Positions 36,959-55,243 of a stretch of 64,000 nucleotides of DNA are shown piece after piece. The notes under the pieces are model-generated. The model was not told where the DNA came from. It did not search any database and worked only from the letters and a program-made list of their open reading frames with translations. Source of the stretch: Terriglobus albidus (lineage in GTDB: Bacteria > Acidobacteriota > Terriglobia > Terriglobales > Acidobacteriaceae). The position numbers and the translations under genes are program-made. Numbering within the stretch: position 1 is the stretch's first letter; each line of letters starts with the position of its first letter. The stretch covers positions 124,001 through 188,000 of the forward strand of contig NZ_JAGTAS010000055.1 in the NCBI RefSeq assembly GCF_025685425.1, written 5' to 3'.

Positions 36959-36975
36959 CTGAATATTCCCTGAAA
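36959..36975 (-). promoter_or_regulatory. Direct-repeat operator (Pho-box-like), receptor 1 promoter
   Basis: In gene orientation it reads TTTCAG-GGAAT-ATTCAG, two half-sites 11 bp apart. Ten bases further lies ATACGC, a weak -10. The ATG of receptor 1 is 26 bases from the motif. It belongs to the five-member set described under findings. Confidence 0.6.
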
Positions 36976-37016
36976 CGAATCGTGAAATCGACGTAACAGA
37001 GCCTGACAACAATCGA

Positions 37017-37054
37017 GAAAAGGGGACGCGGCCGCATGTTGCGGCCGCGTCTCC
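37017..37054 (-). terminator. Rho-independent terminator after receptor 2
   Basis: On the minus strand GGAGACGCGGCCGC and GCGGCCGCGTCCCC form a 13-14 bp GC-rich stem around a five-base loop, followed by CTTTTC. It lies directly downstream of the receptor 2 stop and separates it from the receptor 1 promoter. Confidence 0.8.
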
Positions 37055-37060
37055 TTAGAG

Positions 37061-40000
37061 CTAGTAATCGATGCGCAGGCTGAGCTCCAACTGCCGTGGT
37101 GTTCCGCTTCCGGTAGGGACCGTGCTGAAGGCGCTCTGAATCAAGCCAAAGTTTCCAGGAACGATCTTTGCGGCGCTTCCTGCTCCTGTCGAGGTCAATG
37201 CAACGATCGGCGAACCATACTGCGCTACATTGAACACATTGAACGCCTCGGCGCGGAACGATGTGCTCAGCGACTCCCAGACCTTGAACGTTTTCTGAAG
37301 AGCAATATCCGCCTGCCAATGGCCCGGTCCACGGACCGCATTGCGGCCGAGATTACCCCAGGTTCCATCTGCAGGCACGGCGAATGCAGCCGCGTTCAAC
37401 CATTGCCGAGTTGTCTTACTGACCGGATAAAGAGAAGCACCAGGAAGAAGATTCGGACGCTGATTGCTGTTGATCTGATCGGGCAATACGCTTGCCGCGC
37501 GCGAAAGGGTTACGTTGAGAGGCAGTCCGCCGCGTACACTGCCGACTGCCGCCATCTGCCAGCCACCCAGAATCGTGTTGACCACAGGCCCAGCGTTGCC
37601 AAACACCGCATGTCCTCGGCCCACCGGAACCTGCCAAATAGTGCTGGCGGAGAAGTAGTGCCGCATGTCGAACTGGCTGTTCGCGCGCTCACAAGAGATG
37701 CAGCTCTGGTTCTGAGGAGCAATCGCTTCCGCTCCGCCAACCGAACCCGTGTCGATGGAGTGGGAGAGTTGATAGTTCGCAGCAATCATCAGGCCCGTAC
37801 GATAGTCACGGTGCAGGCCGACCTCCAGCGCGTCGTAGGCTCTGTCACCCTGTGTACGGTTCCATGTAAAAGTGGAGTTGCTGTAGCTCGCATACGGGCG
37901 CTTCCCTGTCGCAGGATTGATTCCGTTGGCAATGGTGTTGCTCCACAGGCTGCTGCCTACGCTGCCAATGTACGACACCATCATCGATGTCCGCTTCGCC
38001 AACTGCTGTTGGAGGCTTAGCGTCCATTCGCTGATCTGCGCATCTTTACGATTGCGGTCCTGCGCGGAAGGGCTAAGGCTGAAGGCCGCGCTGCCGAGGA
38101 ACGGATCGATGGGGAACCTCAGACCAGGTGAGTTCACTTGTGTAAGAGTGAAGCGTTGCGGAATGTTGCCCACCGCAGATCCCTGGTGACCAAACTGTCC
38201 CTGGCCATAGAAGATACCGCCGCCTCCGCTAATGACCGTCTTGTTGTGAAAGATCGCAGGTGACCACGATAAGGAAAGACGTGGAGCAATGTTGTTCCGG
38301 TCCGGGAAGTACCATGCACTACCCGATGGGCATTGAATATTCGGGCAGGTAGACGGATCCACGACAACGCCGCGGCCCAGGACATCGTGATCGACGCTCC
38401 AGAAGTCATAACGAAGACCGGCTGTGAGAGTGAGGTTCTGTTTCAACCTCACAGTGTCCATAAGGTAAGCGCCATACTCGGTCTGGCGCTGGCCGGTCAT
38501 ATTCGAGAACCCCTGGTAAGCGTATGAGTCCATTACATTCGACGTAAAGTTGGTCTCATTCAGATAGGTTGCAGTAATAACCGGAATCTTAGGAGTGTTC
38601 TTGTTCTCCTGGATACGGCGAACGCGCACACCGCCTTTGAAAACATGACTGGCCTTGACGAAGGTCATGTCATCGACAACGCTGTAGGCTGTGTCGTAGC
38701 GATCATCCGTCGCAGGCGTAGTCAGTGTGGCGAATCCGGTGACGGCCACGTTGTAGGGCAACAGCTGATCGCCGCCTTCGGAATATTCGTCGCGGTTGTA
38801 GCCGATACGAAAGTCGGTAAAGATCGACGGCGTGAAGTTGTGTGAGATGTCGATAACGGCATTGGGTGCGGTCAACGTATTGAATAGATTTGAAAGCTGG
38901 CCTCCAGGTGTGACCTCAATACCGTTCGGCGCCGTGGTGCGGAAGTGGTCTGTACTGTAGCGGCCGAAGATGCTGGTGCGAGTGCTCAGCTTATAGTCCA
39001 GCCGGATCATGCCGGAGTCTTCCTGCACAGGATTCCGTCCATTGCCGCTAAAGCTGATGGCATTCGGGTCCTTCGCCGTTGGCGTGCAATTCGCCGGGCA
39101 TGGGTTGATATACGAATTGACAACGCCCGCAAGGCTCGGCGACTTGGCAATGAGTGCGGCGCGGTATGCCGGAGTCGGGACCAAGCCTGTCACTTGTGCT
39201 GACAACACCTGGCGGTACGCTTCCCAGTTTGTGAAGAAGAAGAAGCGGTTCTTGAGGATCGGCCCGCCAATGTTGGCGCCGAAGTTATTCAGGCGCAACT
39301 GCGGCAGGCCGGTGGAGTGCCAAGGCGTTGCATCGAAAACATTGTTGCGCAGATACTCCCAGGCAGAGCCATGGTACTTCTCTCCGCCGGACTTGGTAAC
39401 AATCTCAATCTGGCCGCCGGCAGATCCGCCCTGGTCGGCACTGTAGGCGGCACTGCTTGCCTTGAACTGCGAGATGGCTTCCACCGGAATCTGCAGGCGC
39501 ATGTCCAGCTTCTCGAACTGATGGTTAATACCCGATGCGTCGACCCCGTCCATGTGAAAGTTGTTGTCCTCCTGCGACAGGCCGACGAAACGAATCTGGT
39601 CCTGGGTGCTTCCAGCGGCATCCACCGCTCCTGGCACAGAGGCTTCAAGACGCTCGAAGCTGCGGCCATTCATTGGAAGCTCGTTGAGCTGCGCGCCCTG
39701 AACAACCCCGCCGATCTCAGCGGAAACACGGTTCAGATCGTCTTCCTCCGTGCTTACCTGAACCACGGTGTCGACGGCGGCAACTGCCAGCTTCGCGTTC
39801 ATCTCACGGGTTTCACCAACTTGCAGTGCAAACGATTGAAACTTTATGGTCTGAAAGCCGCCACCATTAATGGTCTCTATGTAATTCCCCACAGGTAAGG
39901 AACTGAGCACATACACGCCGGCAGAGTTCGTGAGCGCCGTATAGGTCACTCCGCTCTCCATTGCGGTTGCAGTAACTGAGGCGCCACGAACCGATGCTCC

Positions 40001-40105
40001 CTGGACGTCGGTTACAGTCCCGGTCAAGGTGGCACGATCCGTTTGCGCCATCATCGGAACCACCCCGAGAAGAACGGACAACACCGTGCGTACAAGCGTT
40101 CGCAT
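37061..40105 (-). CDS. TonB-dependent receptor-like outer-membrane protein 2
   Basis: A 1014-residue Oar-like receptor with the signal peptide MRTLVRTVLSVLLGVVPMMA. The N-terminal carboxypeptidase-regulatory-like domain (TLTGTVTDVQGASVRGASVT, SLPVGNYIETINGGGF) is followed by a plug with ELPMNGRSFERL, NFHMDGVDASGINH and GGSAGGQIEIVTKSGGEKYH. The large barrel ends LELSLRIDY. Family members move large or complex substrates across the outer membrane. It has its own operator (40151) and a strong terminator downstream. The cytochrome-PQQ fusion gene lies upstream on the same strand. Confidence 0.92.
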   Translation of the reverse strand: MRTLVRTVLSVLLGVVPMMAQTDRATLTGTVTDVQGASVRGASVTATAMESGVTYTALTNSAGVYVLSSLPVGNYIETINGGGFQTIKFQSFALQVGETREMNAKLAVAAVDTVVQVSTEEDDLNRVSAEIGGVVQGAQLNELPMNGRSFERLEASVPGAVDAAGSTQDQIRFVGLSQEDNNFHMDGVDASGINHQFEKLDMRLQIPVEAISQFKASSAAYSADQGGSAGGQIEIVTKSGGEKYHGSAWEYLRNNVFDATPWHSTGLPQLRLNNFGANIGGPILKNRFFFFTNWEAYRQVLSAQVTGLVPTPAYRAALIAKSPSLAGVVNSYINPCPANCTPTAKDPNAISFSGNGRNPVQEDSGMIRLDYKLSTRTSIFGRYSTDHFRTTAPNGIEVTPGGQLSNLFNTLTAPNAVIDISHNFTPSIFTDFRIGYNRDEYSEGGDQLLPYNVAVTGFATLTTPATDDRYDTAYSVVDDMTFVKASHVFKGGVRVRRIQENKNTPKIPVITATYLNETNFTSNVMDSYAYQGFSNMTGQRQTEYGAYLMDTVRLKQNLTLTAGLRYDFWSVDHDVLGRGVVVDPSTCPNIQCPSGSAWYFPDRNNIAPRLSLSWSPAIFHNKTVISGGGGIFYGQGQFGHQGSAVGNIPQRFTLTQVNSPGLRFPIDPFLGSAAFSLSPSAQDRNRKDAQISEWTLSLQQQLAKRTSMMVSYIGSVGSSLWSNTIANGINPATGKRPYASYSNSTFTWNRTQGDRAYDALEVGLHRDYRTGLMIAANYQLSHSIDTGSVGGAEAIAPQNQSCISCERANSQFDMRHYFSASTIWQVPVGRGHAVFGNAGPVVNTILGGWQMAAVGSVRGGLPLNVTLSRAASVLPDQINSNQRPNLLPGASLYPVSKTTRQWLNAAAFAVPADGTWGNLGRNAVRGPGHWQADIALQKTFKVWESLSTSFRAEAFNVFNVAQYGSPIVALTSTGAGSAAKIVPGNFGLIQSAFSTVPTGSGTPRQLELSLRIDY

Positions 40106-40150
40106 AATCGCTCCTGATTGGTTTGTTCGGAGCGATTACAACAAGGCCGC

Positions 40151-40167
40151 CTAAAGGAAACCTAAGA
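40151..40167 (-). promoter_or_regulatory. Direct-repeat operator (Pho-box-like), receptor 2 promoter
   Basis: In gene orientation it reads TCTTAG-GTTTC-CTTTAG. Ten bases downstream is TGTAAT, a good -10. The receptor 2 ATG lies 46 bases from the motif, and TCAGGAGCGATT before the ATG supplies the ribosome site. Confidence 0.7.
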
Positions 40168-40202
40168 ATTCAGGCTTTGTGACGGAACATTCACACAAGC
40201 GA

Positions 40203-42209
40203 TCAGCGTCCTCCAGACGTCAGCCCGAAGACGAACACGCCACTAGGACCGGACAATGCAACATATTGCTTGCCGCCAACCATGTAGGTCATCGGAGAGG
40301 CCTGCCAGTCCTGCCCGACCGGGATATGTTTCAGCACTTTACCCGTGGATGCATCCAGTGCAAGGAACGTGCCGCCGGGTCCTCCGGCAAAGACCAGGCC
40401 ACCTGCTGTCGCGAGCACTCCGCCGCGATTATTGGTTGAAAGAGGACGCTCCCACATCTTCCTGCCGGTATTCACGTCCAACGCGCGAATATAGCTTTCG
40501 GCACTTGCCTGGTTCGGAGCAACTCCGCCATACCATCGGTTTTCAACCAGTGGATCGTTCTGTTTCTTGTAGATCGCGCACCACTCATTTGCTCGCAGGT
40601 AAAACAGCCTGGTCTGGGGGCTCCATGCGCTGGAATACCAATTCGTTCCACCGCTTGACGCCGGGCAAATAAGCGCTCCAACTTCCGTTGGCTCCGATGC
40701 CTCTGTAAGGACCGGACGCCCATTCTCATATCGCTTCGCCCATGTTGTCTTGACGAAGGGCTCTGCCAAGAGGAGCTCGCCCGTCTCACGATCAAGAACG
40801 AAGAAGAACCCGTTCCGGTCGGCGTGCACCAGCAGCTTCCGAGGCCTTCCCTTCCAGAGCTGATCGATCAGAAGAAGGGGCTGCTCAGAATCCCAATCAT
40901 GAGTATCGTGCGGTGTGAACTGAAAGTGCCACTTCAGCTCCCCCGTCTTCGCGGACAGAGCAACCACGCTATTGGCGTAGAGATTGTCGCCTTTCCGTTC
41001 GTCGCCATTGAAGTCCGGGCATGGATTGCCGGTCGCCCAATAGACCACGTCAAGCTTTGCGTCATAGGAACCGGTCAACCAGGCAGCGGCACATCCATGC
41101 TCCAGCGCGCTTCCAACCCAGGTTTCAGCTGCCTTCTCACCACGCGCAGGAATTGTGTAGAAACGCCATACGCGCTCGCCCGTGCTTACCTTATAAGCGG
41201 AGATAAAGCCACGAGCACCTTCTTCACCACCTGCAACACCAACAATCACCAGATCGCCAACGACAAGCGGTGCTGCCGTCGCGCTATAGCCATCGGCAAC
41301 CGCACCCATCTCTACATCCCAGAGTTTGCTTCCATCAACACGATTCAATGCCAATAGATGCGCATTGTCCGTCACCATGAATAGCCTGCCGTTCCATACG
41401 CCTACACCGCGGTTCGTCCCTCGTCCAGCCTCACTCAGCAAGCCTGGCGTGTGGGGCTGACGATACATCCACAACTGTTGGCCGGTGGTGGCGTCGAGTG
41501 CATAGGCTTCATTCCAACTTGTGACGTACATAACACCGTCGATGACAACAGGCGTTGTCTCAAGCCGCACGGAGACCGTGGGGAATAACCATGCAAGCGA
41601 CAACCTGTCGACATTCGCTTTATCGATCTGTGCAAGTGCGCTATACCGGTTTCCTGAATCGTCGCCGTTATAGGTGGTCCAGTCCTGCTTCGGCAGAATG
41701 GCTTTTTCCGTATACTTGCTTTCATCACGAGAGAGCAGATGATAGTGACGATCTGTGGTCAATACTTCTGCCGTATAGTCACTCTCGATCACAGTACCGT
41801 GTAGTGTCCGGCCATCCACTAGTTGCACCTTGCCAGGGTGGGGTCCTGGAGGCGGCTTCTTTCCTCCACCTTTGACAGGAGCAATTCCGGTATAGCCCGC
41901 AGTTCCCATCGCGGCATTGGATCCGGCCAGCTGGCGGAGATGTGGAATGAGGTTTTTCAGATCATCCGACGAAAGATCAAAGTTCGGCATCCCACGATCA
42001 ATTCGCCCTTCATGGAGGAGCGACGTCAGCTCCGGGTCCGTGTGATAGCGGACAAAGCCAAGGAGCGACGGCGCACGTCCGCCCCCGCTGCCATCGCCCC
42101 CATGGCATAAGGAACAACGGTTCTCAAAGATTGTGGCACCGGCAGAGACCGCCGATTGCGCATGACACGTAGCAGAGAGAAACAACAGGAGACCAGCCAA
42201 CAATCGCAT
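40203..42209 (-). CDS. Fused cytochrome c - PQQ dehydrogenase, module B
   Basis: A 668-residue exported quinohemoprotein. The signal peptide (MRLLAGLLLFLSATCHAQ) leads into a cytochrome c domain with CSLCH at residues 32-36. A small beta module follows (LVDGRTLHGTVIESDYTAEV), then a PQQ propeller from about residue 150: WTTYNGDDSGNRYSALAQID, the catalytic-Asp segment HDTHDWDSEQPLLL, ADRNGFFFVLDRETGEL and GGTNWYSSAWSPQTRLFYL. The heme domain is N-terminal, unlike classical quinohemoprotein alcohol dehydrogenases where it is C-terminal. It starts six bases after the FG-GAP gene stop, in the same operon. The substrate is unknown. Confidence 0.88.
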   Translation of the reverse strand: MRLLAGLLLFLSATCHAQSAVSAGATIFENRCSLCHGGDGSGGGRAPSLLGFVRYHTDPELTSLLHEGRIDRGMPNFDLSSDDLKNLIPHLRQLAGSNAAMGTAGYTGIAPVKGGGKKPPPGPHPGKVQLVDGRTLHGTVIESDYTAEVLTTDRHYHLLSRDESKYTEKAILPKQDWTTYNGDDSGNRYSALAQIDKANVDRLSLAWLFPTVSVRLETTPVVIDGVMYVTSWNEAYALDATTGQQLWMYRQPHTPGLLSEAGRGTNRGVGVWNGRLFMVTDNAHLLALNRVDGSKLWDVEMGAVADGYSATAAPLVVGDLVIVGVAGGEEGARGFISAYKVSTGERVWRFYTIPARGEKAAETWVGSALEHGCAAAWLTGSYDAKLDVVYWATGNPCPDFNGDERKGDNLYANSVVALSAKTGELKWHFQFTPHDTHDWDSEQPLLLIDQLWKGRPRKLLVHADRNGFFFVLDRETGELLLAEPFVKTTWAKRYENGRPVLTEASEPTEVGALICPASSGGTNWYSSAWSPQTRLFYLRANEWCAIYKKQNDPLVENRWYGGVAPNQASAESYIRALDVNTGRKMWERPLSTNNRGGVLATAGGLVFAGGPGGTFLALDASTGKVLKHIPVGQDWQASPMTYMVGGKQYVALSGPSGVFVFGLTSGGR

Positions 42210-42215
42210 CTTCTT

Positions 42216-43400
42216 CTAGCGCTTTCCCTGGGGAGCTGATTTGGTCTGGTTCTCGAACACGAAGAGGCCCGTCTTTCCGCCCATCACCAGGTCCAGATCG
42301 CCGTCCCCATCAAGATCAGCAACGGCAATCTGCATGCCGGCGCTGATGCGTCCGCCATAGTCGATCACGTGCTTGATCCATTCGATCGAGCCGTCCGAGG
42401 CTTTGCGATACTCGTACCAATAAATGCCCAGAGGTTCTCTTTCGCCGGGATCGCTGCCGTTATGCGCCATATAGCGTTTGCCCGTCACGAAATCGGCCCG
42501 TCCGTCGCCGTTCAGGTCGACCATCGTGAGCGCATGGCCTTGCGACCAGGTGTCATCGATGACATGTTTTTGCCACTTGCCTCCGCCCATGTTTTCCATC
42601 CAGAACATGCCGTAGTCATGGGCGACAGTGGCCACAAGGTCCACGCGGCCATCTTCATTCACATCAAGCGCGTAGATATATCCAACACTCACCAGGTTGA
42701 ATTCCTGGTGGAAGGTCCAGTCCGGCATGCGAGGATCCGCGGGAGCTTCCAGCCATCCAAATGGTGTAATGATGTCGTTCCGCCCATCGTTGTTCAGGTC
42801 GCCGACACCAATGCCGTGAAAGTAGCTGCGCGAGCTGACGACATGTTTGACGACCTTTCCATCGCCGACAATCTCAAACCACGCCAGCGGATCGACCATC
42901 GTATGCCCGCCCCACTGTGGCAATATTGCGGGCGTCTTACTCTTCTTATCGAGTGTCACCAGAAAGCTGAACTCGACGCTGTGACCAACTTCGATGAGGT
43001 GTTCTTTCCATTCCCCTGGTTTTCCCTGTGGGTTTTCGTTCCACCAGATGCGATTGCCATGGGATGCGGAGCTCACTACATCCAGGTATCCGTCGCCATT
43101 CACATCCACAAGAAGATCCGTCAAATCTTCAGTGGCGTTGCGATAGTACTCAATCGAGCGGAAGGGATGCTTTATCCAGTGCGGACCCTCGTACCAGTTC
43201 TCACCGGAGACGATATCGGGATGGCCGTCGCTATTGATGTCCCCTACGGCTGCCGTCTCAAAGGCGCCTGGGTCGATCATCCGGCTGGTAAAACTAATCT
43301 CCGCTGGACGACGTTCAGCCTGAACCGCGGAGGTACCGGCGAGCAACACAATAAGAAATAACGGCAGCCCAAGCGAGCTTCGGAACATGGCAATCCCCAT
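42216..43400 (-). CDS. Secreted FG-GAP/VCBS-repeat propeller protein
   Basis: 394 residues with a signal peptide (FRSSLGLPLFLIVLLAGTSA). Five or more FG-GAP-type blades carry calcium-binding loops: VGDINSDGHPDIV, DVNGDGYLDVV, VGDLNNDGRNDII, DVNEDGRVDLV, DLNGDGRADFV and DLDGDGDLDLV. This integrin-alpha-like propeller is probably a periplasmic or surface binding protein for carbohydrate or partner protein. The start may be the Met at 43388. It lies between a TIM-barrel gene and the cytochrome-PQQ gene in one operon, with its own direct-repeat operator upstream. Confidence 0.88.
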   Translation of the reverse strand: MGIAMFRSSLGLPLFLIVLLAGTSAVQAERRPAEISFTSRMIDPGAFETAAVGDINSDGHPDIVSGENWYEGPHWIKHPFRSIEYYRNATEDLTDLLVDVNGDGYLDVVSSASHGNRIWWNENPQGKPGEWKEHLIEVGHSVEFSFLVTLDKKSKTPAILPQWGGHTMVDPLAWFEIVGDGKVVKHVVSSRSYFHGIGVGDLNNDGRNDIITPFGWLEAPADPRMPDWTFHQEFNLVSVGYIYALDVNEDGRVDLVATVAHDYGMFWMENMGGGKWQKHVIDDTWSQGHALTMVDLNGDGRADFVTGKRYMAHNGSDPGEREPLGIYWYEYRKASDGSIEWIKHVIDYGGRISAGMQIAVADLDGDGDLDLVMGGKTGLFVFENQTKSAPQGKR

Positions 43401-43424
43401 AGTCTGAAGGAGTACCAGCGAACT

Positions 43425-43441
43425 CTAAAGAGAACCTGAGA
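43425..43441 (-). promoter_or_regulatory. Direct-repeat operator (Pho-box-like), FG-GAP/PQQ promoter
   Basis: In gene orientation it reads TCTCAG-GTTCT-CTTTAG. TACTCC follows after exactly ten bases as a -10 candidate. The first possible ATG lies 25 bases from the motif. It lies between the TIM-barrel and FG-GAP genes, so the latter can be transcribed independently. Confidence 0.65.
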
Positions 43442-43483: not shown

Positions 43484-44434
43484 CTAAAAGTTCAATCCCA
43501 GATGGCCGGACATGTAGTCGTACATCGGCTTATCCCCGCCACCGCTCTCACCCATCACCCAGCCGGCAAAACCATCCCACTTTAGCTGCATCAGAATGCT
43601 GGACAGATCCACGATTCCTTCGCCAAACGGCACATTCCCGGCAACCTTGCCTGCCTTCACAGCAATGCCTGCCGGCGGCGCAGGGGAAAAGTCTTTCAGG
43701 TGTACCGCTATCAGACGTTTCCGGTACTTTTTGCATATTTCCAAGGGATCATCGCCACCTGCAGCGATATGCCCCACATCGGCGACAAAGAACACATACC
43801 GTTCATCGGTTGCCTGAAGCAACCGCTCATACAGTTGATGGCTCACCTCTCGCTGCTCAGGGTGGTACGCCACCTTCACGCCGTGTTGCTCGTATACCCG
43901 TCTGGCAACCTCATTCAGATTCTTCGCCCATGTCTCCAGGTTGATCCGGTTGTATGCCTCTTCATCGTCAACCTCGTTCAACACTTCTGAGGGCGCAATC
44001 ATGTGCGTGATGTATTTGCCGCCGATCTTCCCCATGAATGCTGCAATCAGCAGATGTTGTTTGGAGATTGCTTCGATCTCCGACGTGTTCCCCATATGGC
44101 TGAACTGTGCGATACCTGGCATGGTGAGATGGCGCGCAGCCATTCCATCACGGAACTCTGTGATGCGGCTGCGGTAGGCTTCGGCGATCCGGGCCCGTGT
44201 GTTGTTGAACTCAATCCGGCGTACGTTCAGCTTCGCCACTTCATCGCAGTGGGTCCAGAAATCCTGTACTCCGGTCTCGATCGTCGTCTTACCCGCTGGT
44301 ATAAGGCCCACCTGAAACAGTGAAGGCGTTTGACCGCCCGCGAACAAGCCTGCCGCGGAAAAGGAGACATTTCTCAAAAAATCTCTTCGGTCCATGGAAA
44401 GGAAGGATGTCGTCATGGGAGAAGGACAACACAT
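43484..44434 (-). CDS. Tat-exported TIM-barrel sugar isomerase/epimerase-like protein, module B
   Basis: 316 residues. A twin-arginine leader (MDRRDFLRNVSFSAAGLFAG) begins at the Met at 44395; Mets at 44434 and 44416 are also possible starts, and no clear ribosome site distinguishes them. The barrel shows VAYHPEQREV, FVADVGHIAAGGDDP (Asp ligand), VHLKDFS (His ligand), FGEGIVDL and WVMGESGG (Glu ligand). It resembles inosose-dehydratase / IolE-like proteins. First gene of the minus-strand series that includes the FG-GAP and cytochrome-PQQ genes. Confidence 0.87.
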   Translation of the reverse strand: MCCPSPMTTSFLSMDRRDFLRNVSFSAAGLFAGGQTPSLFQVGLIPAGKTTIETGVQDFWTHCDEVAKLNVRRIEFNNTRARIAEAYRSRITEFRDGMAARHLTMPGIAQFSHMGNTSEIEAISKQHLLIAAFMGKIGGKYITHMIAPSEVLNEVDDEEAYNRINLETWAKNLNEVARRVYEQHGVKVAYHPEQREVSHQLYERLLQATDERYVFFVADVGHIAAGGDDPLEICKKYRKRLIAVHLKDFSPAPPAGIAVKAGKVAGNVPFGEGIVDLSSILMQLKWDGFAGWVMGESGGGDKPMYDYMSGHLGLNF

Positions 44435-44517
44435 GAATTTAAGCTGAATCTAAAAAAATCGACCTGTCACACGCGTTTCATGTTTCTGGAGTTTGCAGAA
44501 CGTTAACGTACCTGCAT

Positions 44518-45189
44518 ATGCAAATCCTGGTTGTAGAAGATCGCCCCCGGATGGCGCGCCTTCTGGACCGTGCACTTCGGCGCGAGGGTCACACGGTTAC
44601 CCTCGCATTCGATGGAGAACAGGCTGTGGACTATGGCCGCTCCCCCGATCTCGACGTCATTCTCCTCGATGTCTCCCTGCCGGTCACAGACGGGTTCACC
44701 GTTCTTCAGAGGTTGCGCGCGGAACGCTTTTCCACACCAACCATTATGGTGACAGCCCGTGACTCGATGCAGGATATCGTCCGCGGACTTGATCTCGGAG
44801 CAGATGATTACCTCACAAAACCGTTTGCGCTCGACAATCTGCTTGCCAGAATTCGAGCAGTCTCACGCCGCCGTGCAGCCATCGAAACCGACCGGCTGGA
44901 ATTTCAGGACCTTACCCTTGATCGCAAGACCCATCAAATCTACCGGCTGGGCCGAACAGAGATGCTCACACGCATTGAATTTGCGTTGCTCGAGAAGCTT
45001 ATCCGAAATGCCGGCTTGATCGTCTCGAAGGACATGCTTGTCGAAGCCGGATGGGGGCTTGGCGCAGGTGTGAGTGATGGTTCGCTTTATGTCTTCGTGC
45101 GCGCATTGAGAAACAAAATCTCGGCCAAAGGCGAGCCGCAGCTGCTGCACACTATTCGCGGCGTTGGTTATTCCTTGCGGCGGGCTTGA
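44518..45189 (+). CDS. OmpR/PhoB-family response regulator of two-component system 2
   Basis: 223 residues. The receiver has VVEDRPRM, phospho-Asp in ILLDVSLPVTDG, MVTARDS and TKPFALDNL. The winged helix has EMLTRIEFALLEKLIRNAGL, VSKDMLVEAGWG, and LLHTIRGVGYSLR. No Shine-Dalgarno is visible before the ATG, so the message may be leaderless or weakly translated. It is divergent from the module B TIM-barrel gene across 83 bp. It heads the transcript kinase - quinoprotein, a direct link of regulator and enzyme. Confidence 0.94.
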   Translation: MQILVVEDRPRMARLLDRALRREGHTVTLAFDGEQAVDYGRSPDLDVILLDVSLPVTDGFTVLQRLRAERFSTPTIMVTARDSMQDIVRGLDLGADDYLTKPFALDNLLARIRAVSRRRAAIETDRLEFQDLTLDRKTHQIYRLGRTEMLTRIEFALLEKLIRNAGLIVSKDMLVEAGWGLGAGVSDGSLYVFVRALRNKISAKGEPQLLHTIRGVGYSLRRA

Positions 45190-45190
45190 T

Positions 45191-46588
45191 TTGAAACATA
45201 AAGTATCGATCTCTCTGCGCCTGACCCTGTGGTTCTCCGCTGCCTTCATGCTCGGCTACCTGATCTTTGGCGTAGCAATGTATCTGCAGCTCTCCTTCTC
45301 TCTTGCCGCCGGCCGGGATAAGACCCTCTCGCGGAGAGCAGAGCGAGCTGCCGCTCTATTGAGAACGTGCCATGTCGGCAACACAATATGCGAGGCAAAG
45401 TACGACGACTTCGCCGCAGCAACACCTGAAGGTAATCTCATTCACGTTTTCAATCAAAATGGCACGCGCCTTTATCCCGTCGCTACCAGTCCTGACGATA
45501 TCTTTCCATGGCCTACCGCAGCTGCACTACAAGAACAGGAGTTCTCAAAGGTTCAATATCAGGGAGCTTCCTTTCGCATGCTCTCCCAGATCGTATTGCT
45601 GGGCGGGCAGAGATACCGCATCGTAGTCGGCGGCCAACTGCGAGACAATCGTGCGCTTGTTGCCCAGTTCCGCCGCGGGCTGCTCTGGGCAGTGCCGGTG
45701 TTCCTCGTCTTCTCAGCCGCATTTGGATATTTCCTGAGTACACGCGCGTTGAACCCCGTGGGAGAACTGATCGCATCCTTCCGTTCAACCAGCATCGGCA
45801 ACCTCTCGCGCAGGCTGCCGACGCTCCATTCCGGCGACGAACTTGAGGCGCTCACTGAGACCTGTAACGAGATGCTCGCACGGCTGGACACGGCGGTTAG
45901 CCAGATCACGCGATTCACCGCCGATGCATCGCACGAACTGCGAAGTCCGATCACCTATATCTACACACTCGCTGAATGTGCGCTCAGAAACTCCTCTCTC
46001 GATGAAGAAAGCACTGAATCCTTTCAAGAGATCGTAAAAGAATGTAAGGAAGCGACGGAGCTGCTTGATGACATGCTTACGCTCGCCCGATGTGATTCAG
46101 GACACACGGGCATGGTGTTCGCTCCAACAGATCTGCTAGAGATTCTCGAAGATGTCGCCGCGAAAGCCGGCCCCATTGCAGACCGCAAACAACATCGTCT
46201 GATAACCGATTTCAACCGCCACGACCCGGTATGGATCATGGGGGACGCCTCCAGTCTGCGGCGTCTGTTTTGGATCATGCTGGACAACGCCATCAAATAC
46301 ACTCCGGCGACCGGGCAAATCACGATGCGGCTGCAAGTTAGTAGCGGTGAAGCGCGCATTGCCATTCAGGATACCGGCGTCGGTATTCCACATGATTCCC
46401 TTCCCCATGTCTTCGATCGCTTCTATCGCGTCGATAAAGCGAGAACCTTCAGCGAAGGAACGGGCCTAGGCCTCTCCATCGCAAAGTGGATCTCAGACAT
46501 TCATCGCGCCGTCATCTCAGTAGAAAGTACCGAGAATGCCGGCTCAACCTTTCAAATTGCTTTCGGGACGATCAACGCACGCATATGA
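45191..46588 (+). CDS. Membrane sensor histidine kinase of two-component system 2
   Basis: 465 residues from a TTG at 45191, one base after the regulator stop; an in-frame TTG at 45164 is the alternative. Membrane helices lie at about 10-33 and 160-182 with a periplasmic domain between, containing one Cys pair (CHVGNTIC). HAMP, then HisKA (FTADASHELRSPITYI), N-box LDNAIKYTP, QDTGVGIP and GTGLGLSIAKWI are intact. Its stop overlaps the ATG of the quinoprotein gene by four bases. Confidence 0.92.
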   Translation: MKHKVSISLRLTLWFSAAFMLGYLIFGVAMYLQLSFSLAAGRDKTLSRRAERAAALLRTCHVGNTICEAKYDDFAAATPEGNLIHVFNQNGTRLYPVATSPDDIFPWPTAAALQEQEFSKVQYQGASFRMLSQIVLLGGQRYRIVVGGQLRDNRALVAQFRRGLLWAVPVFLVFSAAFGYFLSTRALNPVGELIASFRSTSIGNLSRRLPTLHSGDELEALTETCNEMLARLDTAVSQITRFTADASHELRSPITYIYTLAECALRNSSLDEESTESFQEIVKECKEATELLDDMLTLARCDSGHTGMVFAPTDLLEILEDVAAKAGPIADRKQHRLITDFNRHDPVWIMGDASSLRRLFWIMLDNAIKYTPATGQITMRLQVSSGEARIAIQDTGVGIPHDSLPHVFDRFYRVDKARTFSEGTGLGLSIAKWISDIHRAVISVESTENAGSTFQIAFGTINARI

Positions 46589-48732
46589 ATGGATTTAAAA
46601 AGCAGGTATCGGTTTACCCTCGCCACACAAAGATTATTGCGGCATCTGCCTTGCTTTTCTGCACAGCATTCCTTCCAGCGCAGACACCTGGAACAGGTAA
46701 GGATTGGCCTGCGTATCAAGGTGGTTCCGATTCTATTCATTACTCAAAACTCATACAGATTAATCGACAGAACGTTAAGGATCTGAAGGTCGCATGGACC
46801 TTCGATACGGCGGAACGCACGAAAGCAAAACGTGAGTTCGAATCGAATCCTCTCATCATCAACGGCGTATTGTACGGTCTTAGCCCTACGGTAAAGGTCT
46901 TTGCTCTAAATGCTGCCACCGGTCAGAAGCTGTGGTCGTTCGACCCAGCCCCAAACTCGGCACAGGTTGGCAGTACGCGGAATCGCGGCGTCACCTATTG
47001 GTCGGATACGGATGGAAGCAATGCTCGTATCTTCGTGACTTTTCGCCAATATCTTTATGCGATCGACGCAAAGACAGGCAAATTGATCGAAAGCTTTGGC
47101 GAGAAAGGTAAGGTCGATCTCCGGGTCGGACTGCGTCACGAAGGCGAAGGCCTGTTCGTTACCATGTCGACTCCCGGTGTCATCTATAAAGACATGCTCG
47201 TGTGCGGCAGCATGATCGCCGAGCAGCTTCCTGCATTTCCTGGAGACATCCGCGCTTTCGATGTTCGCACGGGTAAGATTCGCTGGCAGTTTCACACGAT
47301 TCCGCATCCCGGTGAGTTTGGCTACGATACCTGGCCAAAGGACGCGTGGAAGTACAGCGGCGCTGCCAACGATTGGGCCGGCCTCAGCATTGACCAGAAG
47401 CGCGGCATCGCCTTCGTTCCCCTCGGATCCGCTGCTCCTGATTTTTACGGCGGTGACCGTATTGGCGACGACCTTTTCGCCAACTCGCTTGTCGCGCTGG
47501 ATGCGAATACCGGCAAGCGTCTATGGCACTACCAGTTTGTTCATCACGACATCTGGGATCGTGACCTCAATGCTCCGCCCGCTCTGGTCACCATCAAACG
47601 CGACGGCAAGCTGATCGATGCCGTGGCCCAAACCACCAAGACCGGCCACGTGTTTGTCTTCGATCGTGTAAGCGGAAAGCCGGTCTTTCCCATCGAAGAA
47701 AAGCCGTATCCCCGCAGCCAGATTCCAGGCGAAGTCACCGCGAAGACGCAGCCGTTGCCCGTCGCACCTCCCGCATTCGCACGGCAAAGGATGACAGAGA
47801 AAGACATCACCAACCGGACACCTGAGGCCCACGAAGCCGTACTGCAGCGCTTCAAAACGGTTTTGAGCGATGGACAGTATGCCCCTCAGACATTGGAAGG
47901 CACCATCCTGTTCCCCGGATCCGACGGCGGCCAGGAATGGGGTGGACCTGCGTTCGACCCTGAGACAGGCTACCTCTACACCAACGCAAACGAAATGTCA
48001 TGGATCGTCAAGCTGGCAAAGCGCCCTGCCCCCTCTGAGTTGAACAGCGGGAAAGGGCTCTATGCAGCGCACTGCGCCAAGTGCCATAACAGTGACCTCT
48101 CCGGCAATCCACCAGATGTTCCAGCGCTTGCGAAGCTCGACCAGCGGCTGACGAACCGTGAAGTCGTCACCACCGTTCGCGGCGGCAACGGCAGAATGCC
48201 GGCCTTCCCGCAACTCAGTCCCCTTGAACTGAATGCAATCGCCGAATATGTCCTCAAAGGCAATGACAACATCGTCAGCGCCACGGCTCCCGCTTCGGAA
48301 CAGCAATATATGCTGGGAAGCTCACTGCGTTTCCTGGACCCTGATGGCTATCCGGCCATTACACCTCCGTGGGGAACCCTTACCGCCATCGACTTGAATA
48401 AAGGGACGTTCGCCTGGCGGATTCCTCTTGGAGAGTACCCAGAACTCGCCGCCGAAGGATTGAAGAACACCGGTTCCGAGAACTATGGCGGGGGTGTCAT
48501 CACTGCGGGCGGACTTTTCTTTATCGCAGCTACGAACTACGACAAAAAGTTCCGCGCCTTCGATAAAGCCACCGGAGAGCTTCTGTGGGAGACAACACTT
48601 CCTTTCGCAGGCAATGCGACGCCTTCCATTTATGAAGTGAATGGCAAAGAATACATCGTAATCGCCGCGGGCGGCGGCAAGTCAGTTCATGAAGATTCCG
48701 GAGGAGTCTATGTCGCATTCTCCCTACCGTAG
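46585..48732 (+). CDS. Glucose-dehydrogenase-like PQQ quinoprotein with an inserted cytochrome c domain, module C
   Basis: 715 residues from the ATG at 46585, which overlaps the kinase stop. A signal-like leader (TKIIAASALLFCTAFLPAQ) precedes a PQQ propeller of the glucose/quinate dehydrogenase branch: STRNRGVTYWSD, HHDIWDRDLNAPPALVTI, TTKTGHVFVFDRVSGKPVFP and the end GGGKSVHEDSGGVYVAFSLP. A cytochrome c domain with CAKCHN (Cys 497) and GGNGRMPAFPQLSPLELNAI is inserted between blades before the final segment (GSSLRFLDPDGYPAITPPWG). It likely oxidises a sugar or polyol in the periplasm and passes electrons to its own heme. Coupled to two-component system 2. Confidence 0.9.
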   Translation: MNGFKKQVSVYPRHTKIIAASALLFCTAFLPAQTPGTGKDWPAYQGGSDSIHYSKLIQINRQNVKDLKVAWTFDTAERTKAKREFESNPLIINGVLYGLSPTVKVFALNAATGQKLWSFDPAPNSAQVGSTRNRGVTYWSDTDGSNARIFVTFRQYLYAIDAKTGKLIESFGEKGKVDLRVGLRHEGEGLFVTMSTPGVIYKDMLVCGSMIAEQLPAFPGDIRAFDVRTGKIRWQFHTIPHPGEFGYDTWPKDAWKYSGAANDWAGLSIDQKRGIAFVPLGSAAPDFYGGDRIGDDLFANSLVALDANTGKRLWHYQFVHHDIWDRDLNAPPALVTIKRDGKLIDAVAQTTKTGHVFVFDRVSGKPVFPIEEKPYPRSQIPGEVTAKTQPLPVAPPAFARQRMTEKDITNRTPEAHEAVLQRFKTVLSDGQYAPQTLEGTILFPGSDGGQEWGGPAFDPETGYLYTNANEMSWIVKLAKRPAPSELNSGKGLYAAHCAKCHNSDLSGNPPDVPALAKLDQRLTNREVVTTVRGGNGRMPAFPQLSPLELNAIAEYVLKGNDNIVSATAPASEQQYMLGSSLRFLDPDGYPAITPPWGTLTAIDLNKGTFAWRIPLGEYPELAAEGLKNTGSENYGGGVITAGGLFFIAATNYDKKFRAFDKATGELLWETTLPFAGNATPSIYEVNGKEYIVIAAGGGKSVHEDSGGVYVAFSLP

Positions 48733-48755: not shown

Positions 48756-48772
48756 TCTCAGTCTAATTTTAG
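48756..48772 (+). promoter_or_regulatory. Direct-repeat operator (Pho-box-like), module C TIM-barrel promoter
   Basis: TCTCAG-TCTAA-TTTTAG, followed after ten bases by TACTCT as -10. It lies 88 bases upstream of the TIM-barrel start in the same orientation as the gene. The site is also part of a small dyad GAATCT / AGATTC that might act as a terminator stem after the quinoprotein gene. Confidence 0.6.
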
Positions 48773-48860
48773 ATTCAGTCAGTACTCTCTCCGTGACGCT
48801 CCAGCAGTCTCTGCTTTCTGCGTGAAAGCAGAGACATCGAGGGGCTCGGAGATTTCAGCG

Positions 48861-49865
48861 ATGAATTACTCACGGCGCCAGTTCAACAGGCTGGCTATAT
48901 CAGGTATCTCTGCCGCAGCGGCAACATCGTTCGCCCCCGTCAGGGCCTTTGCCGCCCAAAAACCCAATTCAAAGTTCGGCGGAGTCCAGATCGGACTAAA
49001 CACTGGCTTCAGCTATCACAACATGCCCAACGATGCCGTAACGGTGTTGAAGTACCTGGTGCGTGACGGCATCAATGCCATCGAAATGCAAACGCCCACG
49101 CACGAAGATTGGGCTGGAGCTCCGCCGGCGCCACCACGGCCATATCCGGAAAGGATCGGCGGCGAACAAGTCGGCGCACCGCCTCGTCCGCCTCTTACCG
49201 CCGAGCAACAGGCGGCCCGCAAAGCTTATCTCGAAGCCATGACTCGCTGGCGCACCACCATGCCCGTCAGCAAGTATGCGGAGCTTCGTGCGATGTACAA
49301 CGATGCCGGTGTCAGCTTCTATGCCTTCAAGCTTCCACTTGAAATGCGCATGCCCGACGCTGAATTCGACTATGCCTTTACAGCCGCAAAGACCCTAGGG
49401 TGCACTCAACTCACCATGGAGATGCCTGATGGCAACCCTGCATTGACAGCACGGGTCGGAAAGTTTGCCGAGAAATACAAACTGCCGGTCGGCTATCACG
49501 CTCACCTGCAGGCAAAGCCAACCACATGGGACGAAGCAATGGCTCAGTCAGCCTACAACTGCATCAATCTCGATATCGGCCATTACGTCGCCGCCGGCAA
49601 TCACGACACGCTGGAGTTCATCCGGAAAAATCACGCTCGCATCACCAGCCTTCACATCAAGGATCGCAAGTTCCCAGAGCGCGGCGGACAGAATGTTCCC
49701 TGGGGGGAGGGCGATACGCCCATCAAGGAAGTTCTTCAGTTGGTTAAGAAGAAAGGTTACGAGTTCCCGTGCACCATTGAGATGGAATACGCGCCTCCCG
49801 AAGGCTCAGACAGTGAAAAAGAGATCCTGAAGTCCCTGGCTTATGCCAAAGCCGCACTCGCATAA
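48861..49865 (+). CDS. Tat-exported TIM-barrel sugar isomerase/epimerase-like protein, module C
   Basis: 334 residues from the ATG at 48861 (GGAG upstream; a GTG at 48822 is in frame but lacks a site). The Tat leader is MNYSRRQFNRLAISGISAAA. A proline-rich insert (about residues 83-115, APPAPPRPYPERI) is unusual for the family. Barrel motifs: LTMEMPDGNP, VGYHAHLQAKPTTW, NLDIGHYVAAGNHD (Asp), SLHIKDRKFP (His) and CTIEMEYAPP (Glu). The strand that carries a metal Glu in many relatives reads YHAH here. It follows the quinoprotein gene on the same strand. Confidence 0.88.
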   Translation: MNYSRRQFNRLAISGISAAAATSFAPVRAFAAQKPNSKFGGVQIGLNTGFSYHNMPNDAVTVLKYLVRDGINAIEMQTPTHEDWAGAPPAPPRPYPERIGGEQVGAPPRPPLTAEQQAARKAYLEAMTRWRTTMPVSKYAELRAMYNDAGVSFYAFKLPLEMRMPDAEFDYAFTAAKTLGCTQLTMEMPDGNPALTARVGKFAEKYKLPVGYHAHLQAKPTTWDEAMAQSAYNCINLDIGHYVAAGNHDTLEFIRKNHARITSLHIKDRKFPERGGQNVPWGEGDTPIKEVLQLVKKKGYEFPCTIEMEYAPPEGSDSEKEILKSLAYAKAALA

Positions 49866-50712: not shown

Positions 50713-50730
50713 GCATCCTGGAACACATCA

Positions 50731-50768
50731 AAAAGCGGAGACTCACCCTAGAGTGAGTCTCCGCTTTT
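50731..50768. terminator. Bidirectional rho-independent terminator
   Basis: AAAAGCGGAGACTCAC-CCTAGA-GTGAGTCTCCGCTTTT is a perfect 16-bp stem whose A and T ends provide U-tracts on both strands. It lies between the convergent phosphatase and YncE-like genes. Confidence 0.93.
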
Positions 50769-50775
50769 GTTTGGC

Positions 50776-51792: not shown

Positions 51793-51831
51793 AGTGCTCC
51801 TTGGGTTGACGAACGTTAAACCTGACAAAAT

Positions 51832-51867
51832 CCATAGACCCAACCGATGTTTCGGCTGGGTCCATGG
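51832..51867 (-). terminator. Rho-independent terminator after receptor 3
   Basis: On the minus strand CCATGGACCCAGCCGA and TCGGTTGGGTCTATGG pair with few mismatches around a four-base loop and are followed by ATTTTGT. It lies 25 bp downstream of the receptor 3 stop and upstream of the YncE-like gene. Confidence 0.75.
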
Positions 51868-51891
51868 AATCTGCCACATACTGCTTCTTTC

Positions 51892-54800
51892 TTAGAACGC
51901 GATCTTGAGTGCGAACTGAATCTGACGAGCCGGTAGCGTGCTGGTGATTTTGCCAAACGAAGAGTTGGCGCGATCGCCGTTCGCCGGAGAGAAGTTGGTC
52001 TTGTTGAATGCGTTGAAGAATTCGGTTCTGAACTGCAGGTACTGCCCTTCCCGAAGTAACGGGAACTCTTTCTTCAAGCCGAGATCGAGGTTGTAGTAGT
52101 TGTTGCTGCGTCCGATGTTGCGAGCGGCGTTTCCATATGGATGGCTCACATCGGTCGGTACAGTAACGGTGCTGGGATTGAAGTACTGTGTGATCGTCCG
52201 TTGCCCCTTCGGCATCATCGGATCACCCGATACATTCGGCCGGTAGATTGCAGAATTCTTGCTTCCATCCGTTGCAAGAAAAGCTGCACTGGGCGTGTAG
52301 GTAAGGTTGATCGGCTGTCCGCTGGTCATGGTGTTGATACCGGTCAGGGTCCATCCACCGGCAATCGCATTCACCAGCATTGGCGAACCGCCACCGAAAT
52401 GGCGCCCGTGGCCGTACGGAAGATCGAACACAAACGAAGTCGTGTTGTTCAGGGGTTGATCATACCCTGACACGCCGCGAGACGAGGCAATATCGTAGAT
52501 ATTGACCGACTGCTGGTCTCCATTTGCCATCTCCAGTGCACCGGAAGCACTGTCCATCGCCTTGGACCAGGTGAACGAGTTCAATAATGAGAGTCCATTC
52601 GAGTAACGCTTCTCTACCTTGAACTGCAGCGCGTTGTAATTGGCAAAGCCGGCACTCAGGTTTGAGTCAATGTAGTCAAACTTGGCGTTCGGTCTGCGAG
52701 CCTTCACCGAAAGGTTTTGCCCCGTTTTGTTTGGCAATGCCTGATTCAGGTCGCCCGTGACCCATAGGGCTACCGTGTGGTTCCCCACATAGGCCAGATC
52801 GGCCATCATGTTCCATGGAAGCTCACGCTGCAGGCTCAAGTGCCAATTCTGGACATACGGAGTGCGGATGTTCGGATCGATGTAGACGGTCTTCGTCGTC
52901 ACCGTCGAGAAGTTCGAGGGCGAAGTGAAGCCATCCGGATATCCCATCTCCGTCGGGCGGAAGCAGGAGGTGATTGCCGATGTAGCTGTGCATAGTGGCG
53001 AAGAAGGCGTCTGTGTGATCTGCGAGTTCACCACAAACGGTCCATTGTAAGCCAGGTAGCTATCGCCGCCCTGGCGCAGGAAAAGTACGTAGCTGATGCC
53101 GTATCCGGCACGCACCGCAGTCTTAGGCGTCAGGCTATACGCGACGCCGGCACGCGAAGCCCAGTTTTTGTATGAAGGATTTACCAGGGTGCGGTTCTTC
53201 AGTGAACCACCTTTCGCATATACCAGCGAATTGCTCGCCGGATCGAAGTTCGCCATGCGGTTGTCGCGCTCATACTGCGGGGTCGCAAACTCATAACGAA
53301 TCCCGAGGTTGAGCGTCAAACGCGGCGACACCTTCCAATCGTCCTGCAGGTATCCAAAGTCCATCCACTGGCGCAGGTTTGCAGTCGTGTATGTCGAAAG
53401 CTGATAGGTCGAACGCGCGCCAAAGAGAAAGTCCGCCAGGTTATAGACCGAATTGCTCTTCGTCGGTGTAGGGTTGCTGAACTGGCCGGTATAGATGTCC
53501 TGACCATAAGCAGGATTGAAGTCATCCATATATGTATGGATTGCCTGGTACTCGTAGCCAACCTTAAGCGTGTGGCGGCTCAGAATCTTGGAGTAGTTGG
53601 CCTTTGGGTTGAAGACCATGGGATTCTGCCACTGCGGACTGGTGTAGTCGCGCCCATAGGATGCGTATCCGGAGACATTTTGCGTGTTCAGACCACCGGT
53701 CAGCGCCTTGTCTGTCGGCAGACCAGAGATTCCGTAGAGGTCCAGCATACTCGGACCGCCATCAAGCGTTGCCGGGGTCTTCCCAGCCGAGGTATTCGAC
53801 ATCCCGAAACGCACGTCCAGATAGGAACTCGGGTTGATGGCCCAGGTCAGGCCGGTAGCCGTCTGCCAGTTATTGGCATAGGAGACGATACCCGCGCCTT
53901 GACCGGATGGCCCCGGAATATTGTTGTTCGGCGCAGCCAGCTGGTTATACACGCGATAGCTGTACCGCTCGAAGAATGTGATCTTTTTCGTTAGATAGTG
54001 ATCGTAGCGAATGTTCGCCTTGTTATCGTTGTCCGTCGCGGGAAGCAGCGCCTGGTAGTTTGAAGTGTTGCCGGAAAGATTCGGCGCGGGCAGAGCAGCA
54101 AATACGGTTCTGCCAAACTTCGTGATGGCCGACGCCGGAATCGTACCGTTGGCATACACGGCTCCGCTGTATGGATTCACCACAGGAAGGCTGCTGCCAA
54201 AGATTCCGTTTCTCTGGTCCAACGTCGGAACACTGCCGAAGCTGAGGGCGCGCTGAAGACGCCGCAGGCCCTCATAATCCGCGAACAGAAAGAGCTTGTC
54301 CCTCTTGATCGGTCCGCCGGCTGCCGCTCCAAACTGGTTCTGGATGTAGACAGGCTTCTTGCCTCCCGTCGGCTTGAAGTATCCAGGTGCATTCAGAGTT
54401 GTGTTCCGCAGAAACTCCCAGATCGTACCGTGAAACTGGTTGCCGCCGTTCTTGTATACGGCATTGATCACTGCACCGCCAACGTGCCCATATTCGGCAC
54501 TGTAGTTGTCGGTGATGACCCGGAACTCCTGCAATGCGTCAGGAGAGACCTGGATGACCTGGTTGGAAAGGCCCTGATTTGAGGTTCCGTAGGCGTTGTT
54601 ATCCAGCCCATCGAGCACAAAGTTATTGAACTGACTGCGCAGTCCATTCACATTAAATGATGCTTCGCGCTTTGCAAGTCCATAGGCATTACGAACTCCC
54701 GGGGCAAGCAACGCCAGCGACCCGGTCGATCTTCCGTTCAGGGGGAGTTCCACAATCTTTTCATTGCTGATCACTTCGCCGCGATCGCTGGATTCTGTCT

Positions 54801-55203
54801 GAAGAAGCGTCGCGGCCCATTTCACTTCAACAACCTGGCTCGCATCTCCTACCTGCAGTGCTAAATTGACCCGCTGTCGCTCACCGGCGTCAACGCGGAA
54901 GCCGTCGCTCTGGGCGGACTTGAATCCCGAGGCGTCTACATTGACGCGGTACTTTCCGACATGAACCTCAAGAAACTGGTAGTCCCCTTTGGAATCTGTT
55001 GTAACTTGTTGCACTACTCCTGTATCGATATTCAGAAGACTCACCCGCGCTTGCTGCACAACTGCGCCATTGGGATCTGAGATCGTTCCCAGGACAGCCG
55101 CGTTCTCAAACTGTCCAAAACAGAAGGTCACCTGTGAGAATAAGGCCGCCATGAAGAGAGCAGCACAAAGTGCACCGGAAAAGCGTCCATAATTTGTCTT
55201 CAT
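51892..55203 (-). CDS. TonB-dependent receptor-like outer-membrane protein 3
   Basis: 1103 residues from the ATG at 55203 (a TTG at 55236 is in frame). The signal peptide MKTNYGRFSGALCAALFMAA continues to CFGQ. The carboxypeptidase-regulatory-like domain shows VLGTISDPNGAVVQQARVSL and FLEVHVGKYRVNVDASGF. The plug has ELPLNGRSTGSLALLAPGVR, NFVLDGLDNNAYGTS and GGAVINAVYKNGGNQFHGTI. The barrel ends IQFALKIAF. It is Oar-like, as in receptors 1 and 2. Its operator lies 23 bases upstream of the ATG. Confidence 0.92.
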   Translation of the reverse strand: MKTNYGRFSGALCAALFMAALFSQVTFCFGQFENAAVLGTISDPNGAVVQQARVSLLNIDTGVVQQVTTDSKGDYQFLEVHVGKYRVNVDASGFKSAQSDGFRVDAGERQRVNLALQVGDASQVVEVKWAATLLQTESSDRGEVISNEKIVELPLNGRSTGSLALLAPGVRNAYGLAKREASFNVNGLRSQFNNFVLDGLDNNAYGTSNQGLSNQVIQVSPDALQEFRVITDNYSAEYGHVGGAVINAVYKNGGNQFHGTIWEFLRNTTLNAPGYFKPTGGKKPVYIQNQFGAAAGGPIKRDKLFLFADYEGLRRLQRALSFGSVPTLDQRNGIFGSSLPVVNPYSGAVYANGTIPASAITKFGRTVFAALPAPNLSGNTSNYQALLPATDNDNKANIRYDHYLTKKITFFERYSYRVYNQLAAPNNNIPGPSGQGAGIVSYANNWQTATGLTWAINPSSYLDVRFGMSNTSAGKTPATLDGGPSMLDLYGISGLPTDKALTGGLNTQNVSGYASYGRDYTSPQWQNPMVFNPKANYSKILSRHTLKVGYEYQAIHTYMDDFNPAYGQDIYTGQFSNPTPTKSNSVYNLADFLFGARSTYQLSTYTTANLRQWMDFGYLQDDWKVSPRLTLNLGIRYEFATPQYERDNRMANFDPASNSLVYAKGGSLKNRTLVNPSYKNWASRAGVAYSLTPKTAVRAGYGISYVLFLRQGGDSYLAYNGPFVVNSQITQTPSSPLCTATSAITSCFRPTEMGYPDGFTSPSNFSTVTTKTVYIDPNIRTPYVQNWHLSLQRELPWNMMADLAYVGNHTVALWVTGDLNQALPNKTGQNLSVKARRPNAKFDYIDSNLSAGFANYNALQFKVEKRYSNGLSLLNSFTWSKAMDSASGALEMANGDQQSVNIYDIASSRGVSGYDQPLNNTTSFVFDLPYGHGRHFGGGSPMLVNAIAGGWTLTGINTMTSGQPINLTYTPSAAFLATDGSKNSAIYRPNVSGDPMMPKGQRTITQYFNPSTVTVPTDVSHPYGNAARNIGRSNNYYNLDLGLKKEFPLLREGQYLQFRTEFFNAFNKTNFSPANGDRANSSFGKITSTLPARQIQFALKIAF

Positions 55204-55226
55204 GGCCCGGATTGAACCAAGCAACT

Positions 55227-55243
55227 CTGAAGACAATCTAAGG
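55227..55243 (-). promoter_or_regulatory. Direct-repeat operator (Pho-box-like), receptor 3 promoter
   Basis: In gene orientation it reads CCTTAG-ATTGT-CTTCAG. TTCAAT follows after ten bases. The start codon is so close to this -10 that the message would have almost no leader. Confidence 0.65.

Follow-up and report, generated by a model that had tools for sequence, protein, structure and literature searches.

Response regulators of the OmpR type that act on boxes made of 11-bp direct repeats are well known as a kind. The Pho box of PhoB is a direct repeat with an 11-bp period and ends about ten bases ahead of the -10 element. The PmrA (BasR) box has been described as CTTAAG-N5-XTTAAT in Salmonella and CTTAAT-N5-CCTAAG at Klebsiella pbgP (PMC3973317); its -35 element is located in the half-1 site, and residues of the PmrA recognition helix contact bases (PMC4660055). 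AgrR, an OmpR-family silver-resistance regulator, is described as binding an inverted 6-4-6 repeat (PMC7380067). Here we analyse a 64,000-nucleotide stretch of the Terriglobus albidus contig NZ_JAGTAS010000055.1 (the window). Between 32 and 56 kb, the window encodes two kinase-regulator pairs (HK1 and RR1, HK2 and RR2), three TonB-dependent-receptor-like proteins (TBDR1 to TBDR3), two quinoprotein-like proteins with a cytochrome c domain (PQQ1 and PQQ2), one FG-GAP protein and two TIM-barrel proteins (TIM1 and TIM2), with gene identities taken from Pfam. Five hexamer repeats in this cluster are probably operators of the two sister OmpR/PhoB-type regulators encoded in it, RR1 acting on site 1 and RR2 on sites 2, 3 and 5.

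Comparison with described regulators and boxes

RR1 and RR2 both contained Response_reg and Trans_reg_C domains above the Pfam gathering score and, with direct repeats near an 11-bp period (the spacer-5 peak in 41 loci, below), had the features of the OmpR/PhoB family. The preliminary description had called the repeats Pho-box-like. This holds for the architecture, an 11-bp direct repeat over the -35 region, as well as for the spacing to the -10 and the regulator family. The half-site letters, however, are not those of the Pho box and lie nearer to the PmrA box, and the targets are by annotation receptors, quinoprotein-like, FG-GAP and TIM-barrel proteins rather than phosphate genes; the PhoB equivalog model TIGR02154 (cut-off 296.2) gave 196.5 bits for RR1 and 162.9 bits for RR2. 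PmrA shares the hexamer direct repeat, the 5-bp spacer and the head-to-tail binding described for the OmpR family (PMC3973317), and its half-site letters are close to CCTTAG and CTTTAG. The third or fourth base, however, is T or C here and A there (YTYAG versus TTAAG or TTAAT). None of the five sites has a TTAA half-site, a sixth place discussed below has one (GCTTAA), and both regulators fell under the cut-off of 330 of the PmrA equivalog model NF007928 (RR1 165.9, RR2 159.4 bits). The top NCBIfam model for both was the CztR/SilR/CopR heavy-metal model TIGR01387, again with scores (RR1 233.5, RR2 191.4 bits) under its cut-off of 279.2. AgrR differs in its inverted repeat (PMC7380067), whereas the repeats examined here are direct.

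Two flavours of repeat and two regulators

The hexamer-N5-hexamer repeats were verified in the window sequence at all five places (Table 1), each oriented to its gene and separated by exactly ten bases from a -10-like hexamer, in agreement with the preliminary description, which had also reported the 11-bp period. Sites 1 to 5 have YYTYAG-N5-NTTYAG in common. When the sites were scored with matrices derived from other genomes, two flavours were observed. The RR1-type consensus,.TTCAGG..AAATTCAG, was derived from 12 sites located upstream of RR1 or TBDR1 in other genomes, and the RR2-type consensus, CCTTAGATTG...TTAG, from 18 RR2-clade sites; leave-one-out assignment was correct for 12/12 and 18/18 sites, respectively. 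Site 1 scored 22.2 with the RR1 matrix, where it was the top place of the window (next 17.0), and -7.7 with the RR2 matrix, a margin of 29.9 bits in favour of the RR1 type. Sites 2, 3 and 5 were assigned to the RR2 type by 19.0 bits (17.1 RR2, -1.9 RR1), 12.3 bits (17.3 and 5.0) and 14.5 bits (20.6 and 6.1). Site 4 scored low on both matrices, leaned to RR1 by 3.1 bits and was assigned to neither flavour. Sites 1 to 5 look like putative operators of two sister OmpR-type regulators, with two flavours that follow the two regulator clades.

A tree was built from 61 regulators; RR1 (support 100/99), RR2 (99/96) and RR3 (99/95) each formed one side of a branch in it. The recognition helix was NTLDAFMKQLR in nine of the ten RR1 orthologues, with NTLDVFMKQLR in genome G383; a more distant row, G386, had NTLDVFIKQLR. 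SLYVFIR was present in the helix of 18 of the 23 RR2-clade rows outside RR2 itself, and the five RR2 rows varied in the helix, the window protein having SLYVFVRALR. By analogy, we infer that the base-contacting helix positions of PmrA carry over to RR1 and RR2. RR3 is a third regulator group with one copy in the T. albidus genome and a CTTAG-N6-CTTAG dialect, for example TCTTAGATCAGCCTTAG; boxes of this dialect were seen before their own regulator (locus L093, 10076-10092; L190, 12855-12871) and behind a kinase gene (L188, 16795-16811).

The preliminary description had proposed that one of the two local OmpR-type regulators binds and activates all five sites, which would make the flavours tolerated variation. 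The common letters with their equal spacing to the -10 and the low scores of site 4 on both matrices are consistent with this proposal, but the opposite scores of site 1 and of sites 2, 3 and 5 on the two matrices, together with the different recognition helices of RR1 and RR2, argue against it. It was judged less likely once the two matrices had separated the sites, and we consider it improbable.

Motif search upstream of RR2-clade regulators

An expectation-maximisation search of the 220 bp upstream of 21 RR2-clade regulators in other genomes (L125-L145), from which the window was excluded, returned the 17-bp motif CTTAGATTGgccTTAGA. It reached at least 20 bits in 18 of the 21 regions, each time facing the divergent gene; the L131 and L143 regions are 91% identical, so these are about 20 independent cases. 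Ranking the window by the 17-bp motif placed site 5 first (22.7), followed by site 3 (22.2), site 2 (17.7) and the sixth place (15.4). Eight shuffled sets gave motif scores of 81.7-90.9 versus 275.9 for the real set, and none of their motifs had a place near site 1, 2, 3 or 5 in its top 20; one of the eight had a place near site 4 there.

Upstream of the regulators of a distant RR1-like clade (L146-L162), the de novo motif in gene direction was a different one, TTAATATTTCTTCAGGT, and was excluded from the flavour assignment. These regions have TTAATATTTCTTCAGGT or a TTTCA-N6-TTCAG repeat facing the regulator's own gene, and the RR1-like regulators are perhaps autoregulated.

Several observations weigh against the assignment of sites to RR1 and RR2. 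The 12 RR1 sites were picked by the author on position and score, flavour being no criterion. At the thresholds used, the RR1 genes of G013, G138 and G383 showed no upstream box of the RR1 type, and three of the 21 RR2-clade loci (L125, L137 and L140) were without a box. The boxes before TBDR3 favoured RR2 by only 7.3 bits in G412 and 2.1 bits at L122. The 28-bp version of the RR2-clade motif did less well in the window: its top place was site 3 (14.3), the runner-up was an unrelated place, and sites 5 and 2 followed in third (7.9) and eighth (3.7) position. In its 17-bp form, the motif of the RR1-like clade put site 1 in second position, after a place within the RR2 gene; the 28-bp form put it fifth.

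Counterparts in other genomes

Conservation in relatives, which the preliminary description had expected of a shared operator, was observed for all five sites: one or more other genomes had a counterpart of each, ahead of the orthologous gene or operon. The same-genus genomes G013 and G003 retain the block TBDR1-TBDR2-PQQ1-FG-GAP-TIM1-RR2-HK2-PQQ2, with box and -10 retained in both before TBDR1 (ATACGC) and TBDR2 (TGTAAT). Counterparts of site 1 were located before TBDR1 in G013, G003, G412, G076, G157 and G138, with a weak one in G007, and RR1-type boxes before the RR1 orthologue itself in G076, G196, G157, G007 and G003. Site 2 had counterparts in G013, G003 and G412. For site 3, an extra gene, X, lies between TIM1 and FG-GAP in G013 and G003, preceded by an RR2-type box and TGTAAT (13.0 and 9.5 bits, respectively). 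In G412, boxes were retained before TBDR1, TBDR2, TBDR3 and TIM2 and were also present before PQQ2 and TIM1, and none was found before the FG-GAP gene at the thresholds used; its counterpart of site 4, TATCAG-N5-TTTCAG, was RR1-type by 12.1 bits. Counterparts of site 5 preceded TBDR3 in G412 and at L122, where the TBDR3 relative has 68% identity.

Four half-sites spaced at 11 bp were also seen between PAP2-like and HK2-like genes at L077 (13039-13077) and L092 (7280-7318), on the strand opposite to both genes.

Frequency in the genome and at other loci

A hexamer matrix was built from the five sites alone, as the preliminary description had suggested, and 41 other loci were scanned with it (677,443 bases, threshold 14.5 bits), some of them orthologous to the window cluster (L122-L124). 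It gave 23 matches at spacer 5 versus 1-8 at each of 20 other spacers between 0 and 20 (mean about 4). A count of 23 was reached by six of 720 column permutations, including the true order, and these six are alike except for how the first four columns are arranged. Dinucleotide shuffles of each locus, in the divergent direction, gave p ≤0.05 in 14 of the 21 RR2-clade loci.

The loose pattern YYTYAG-N5-YTTYAG was not enriched in the 6.1-Mb genome, with 19 matches versus 31 for the reversed control. Four of the 19 fall inside the cluster (site 1 is outside the pattern), and no convincing promoter was seen by eye among the other 15, several of which are coding. Matches at L002, L005, L007 and L018 (around 1501-1517) resemble dispersed inverted repeats such as CTTCAGCCAGGCTTCAGCCC, which mimic the loose pattern in the T. 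albidus genome. The strict RR2-flavour pattern YTYAGRTTNNYTTYAG matched three times in the T. albidus genome, at sites 2, 3 and 5 (reversed control 1), and the strict RR1-flavour pattern YTCAGRRNAWATTCAG once, at site 1 (reversed control 0). Both strict patterns were composed after the sites had been seen; independent evidence comes from the motif found de novo. With strict matches confined to these four sites, the regulon looks small and local.

Across 61 genomes, the RR2-type pattern had 28 matches versus 27 reversed. Seven of the 28 belonged to this cluster or its orthologues or lay beside RR2-clade regulators (three in T. albidus, the others in G003, G013, G004 and G010). Among 18 read of the other 21, none had a recognised receptor gene downstream and most sat within long open frames; the matches at L203, L206 and L217 were outside or at the edge of an open frame, the last with a possible -10, ATACAA. 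The RR1-type pattern gave five matches versus none reversed, three of them TBDR1 promoters (T. albidus, G003 and G013) and the remaining two in G003 at 4851313 and in G057.

Without a genome-wide excess, a global regulon is unsupported. The same counts, 19 versus 31 and 28 versus 27, could be read as chance resemblance in AT-rich promoter DNA; however, the spacer peak at held-out loci, the de novo motif with its shuffle control and the counterparts at orthologous promoters make chance a highly improbable explanation.

A sixth place between RR2 and TIM1

At the sixth place, an RR2-type and an RR1-type repeat are interleaved with an offset of 6 bp (Table 1). The flanks of the 34-bp block that contains them (44426-44459) differ between the window, G013 and G003, but the block itself is identical in all three. 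The place ranked fourth in the window on the RR2 matrix (13.4; fifth, 13.3) and second on the RR1 matrix (17.0). Its RR2-type repeat begins 62 bp from RR2, and in 17 of 18 loci the start of the RR2-clade box is 59-75 bp away from the regulator. As no clear -10 was seen after it, the gene it serves may be RR2 and not TIM1. The equivalent place in G412 is a pure RR1-type box, ACTCAG-N5-ATTCAG (24.3 bits).

In a rival reading, every box would be bound by RR1 and RR2 alike, with graded affinity, giving one cross-wired regulon with two inputs. The half-site length, spacing and YTYAG core shared by the flavours, the scores of the sixth place on both matrices and the ambiguous flavour of site 4 are in line with this arrangement, but sites 1 and 2 were negative or near zero on the other regulator's matrix, and we regard it as unlikely. 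Separate use of the boxes by RR1 and RR2 is preferred. We further propose, tentatively, that two duplicated two-component systems have split an operator code and are still linked through the 34-bp element; RR1 and RR2 might compete or alternate at the RR2-TIM1 promoter region, and across the family each related regulator-receptor module would have a separate dialect of a common 11-bp repeat.

Promoter form and genes of the cluster

In the window and its relatives, nine of 12 RR2-type sites had the TG of an extended -10, versus one of 11 RR1-type sites, and in 11 of the 18 RR2-clade sites the ten-mer between box and -10 ended in TG plus one base. By these counts, an extended -10 tends to occur in RR2-type promoters. 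The -10 hexamers of the RR2-clade sites ended in ACT in 18/18. The distance from the -10-like hexamer to the ATG is 9 bases for TBDR1 (window 36933-36948; 8 in G013 and G003) and 7 bases for TBDR3 (55203-55216; 7 in G412), and these two mRNAs may be leaderless or near-leaderless.

TBDR1 and RR1 are separated by 16 bp and RR1 overlaps HK1, and the three genes are likely to form an operon. The best NCBIfam model for PQQ1 was acido-empty-quinoprotein group A (523.4 bits, under its cut-off of 650), a name that suggests a quinoprotein fold without pyrroloquinoline quinone (PQQ). We do not favour PQQ uptake as a role of the receptors: PqqE and PqqC are both present in the genome, scoring above cut-off, and for TBDR2, the one receptor of the three that was searched, no PDB relative was found at E 0.01.

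Table 1 Repeats and genes of the receptor cluster, in window coordinates
Feature	Position	Strand	Repeat or product	Context	Basis
Site 1	36959..36975	-	TTTCAG-GGAAT-ATTCAG	RR1-type; before TBDR1 (probably TBDR1-RR1-HK1 operon)	
Site 2	40151..40167	-	TCTTAG-GTTTC-CTTTAG	RR2-type; before TBDR2; extended -10 TGT-TGTAAT	
Site 3	43425..43441	-	TCTCAG-GTTCT-CTTTAG	RR2-type; before FG-GAP and PQQ1; extended -10 TGG-TACTCC	
Site 4	48756..48772	+	TCTCAG-TCTAA-TTTTAG	Assigned to neither flavour; before TIM2	
Site 5	55227..55243	-	CCTTAG-ATTGT-CTTCAG	RR2-type; before TBDR3; TGG-TTCAAT	
Sixth place	44433..44455	-	TTTTAG-N5-GCTTAA (44439-44455); ATTCAG-N5-ATTCAT (44433-44449)	RR2-type and RR1-type, respectively, interleaved	
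HK1	32293..33699	-	Sensor histidine kinase	Overlaps RR1	Pfam
RR1	33696..34373	-	Response regulator with Trans_reg_C domain		Pfam, tree, helix
TBDR1	34390..36933	-	TonB-dependent-receptor-like, carboxypeptidase-regulatory-like domain		Pfam
TBDR2	37061..40105	-	TonB-dependent-receptor-like, carboxypeptidase-regulatory-like domain		Pfam
PQQ1	40203..42209	-	Quinoprotein-like with cytochrome c domain	Downstream of FG-GAP	
FG-GAP	42216..43400	-	FG-GAP repeat protein		Pfam
TIM1	43484..44434	-	Xylose-isomerase-like TIM barrel		Pfam
RR2	44518..45189	+	Response regulator with Trans_reg_C domain		Pfam, tree, helix
HK2	45164..46588	+	Sensor histidine kinase	Start in open reading frame list overlaps RR2	Pfam
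PQQ2	46486..48732	+	Quinoprotein-like with cytochrome c domain	True start probably further in	
TIM2	48822..49865	+	Xylose-isomerase-like TIM barrel		Pfam
TBDR3	51892..55236	-	TonB-dependent-receptor-like	Likelier start ATG at 55203	

Proposed mechanism and meaning

We propose that each kinase, on its signal, would phosphorylate its own regulator, which would then bind its box head to tail, the two half-sites lying 11 bp apart and covering the -35 region, and would bring RNA polymerase to the -10 that follows after ten bases, activating rather than repressing the promoter. Head-to-tail binding to a box and polymerase recruitment are described for PmrA and PhoB (PMC3973317, PMC4660055). RR1 on site 1 would act on its own likely operon, TBDR1-RR1-HK1, as positive feedback, and RR2 on sites 2, 3 and 5 would act on TBDR2, FG-GAP with PQQ1, and TBDR3.

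Control of the many TonB-dependent receptors in Acidobacteria seems little described: among the titles and abstract openings listed in literature searches, none described such an operator, and these boxes and targets did not appear there. For the cluster analysed here, the prediction covers two regulators together with their boxes and target genes, and does so in testable form. Related regulators with matching box dialects would offer natural material on how regulator-DNA recognition diverges after duplication.

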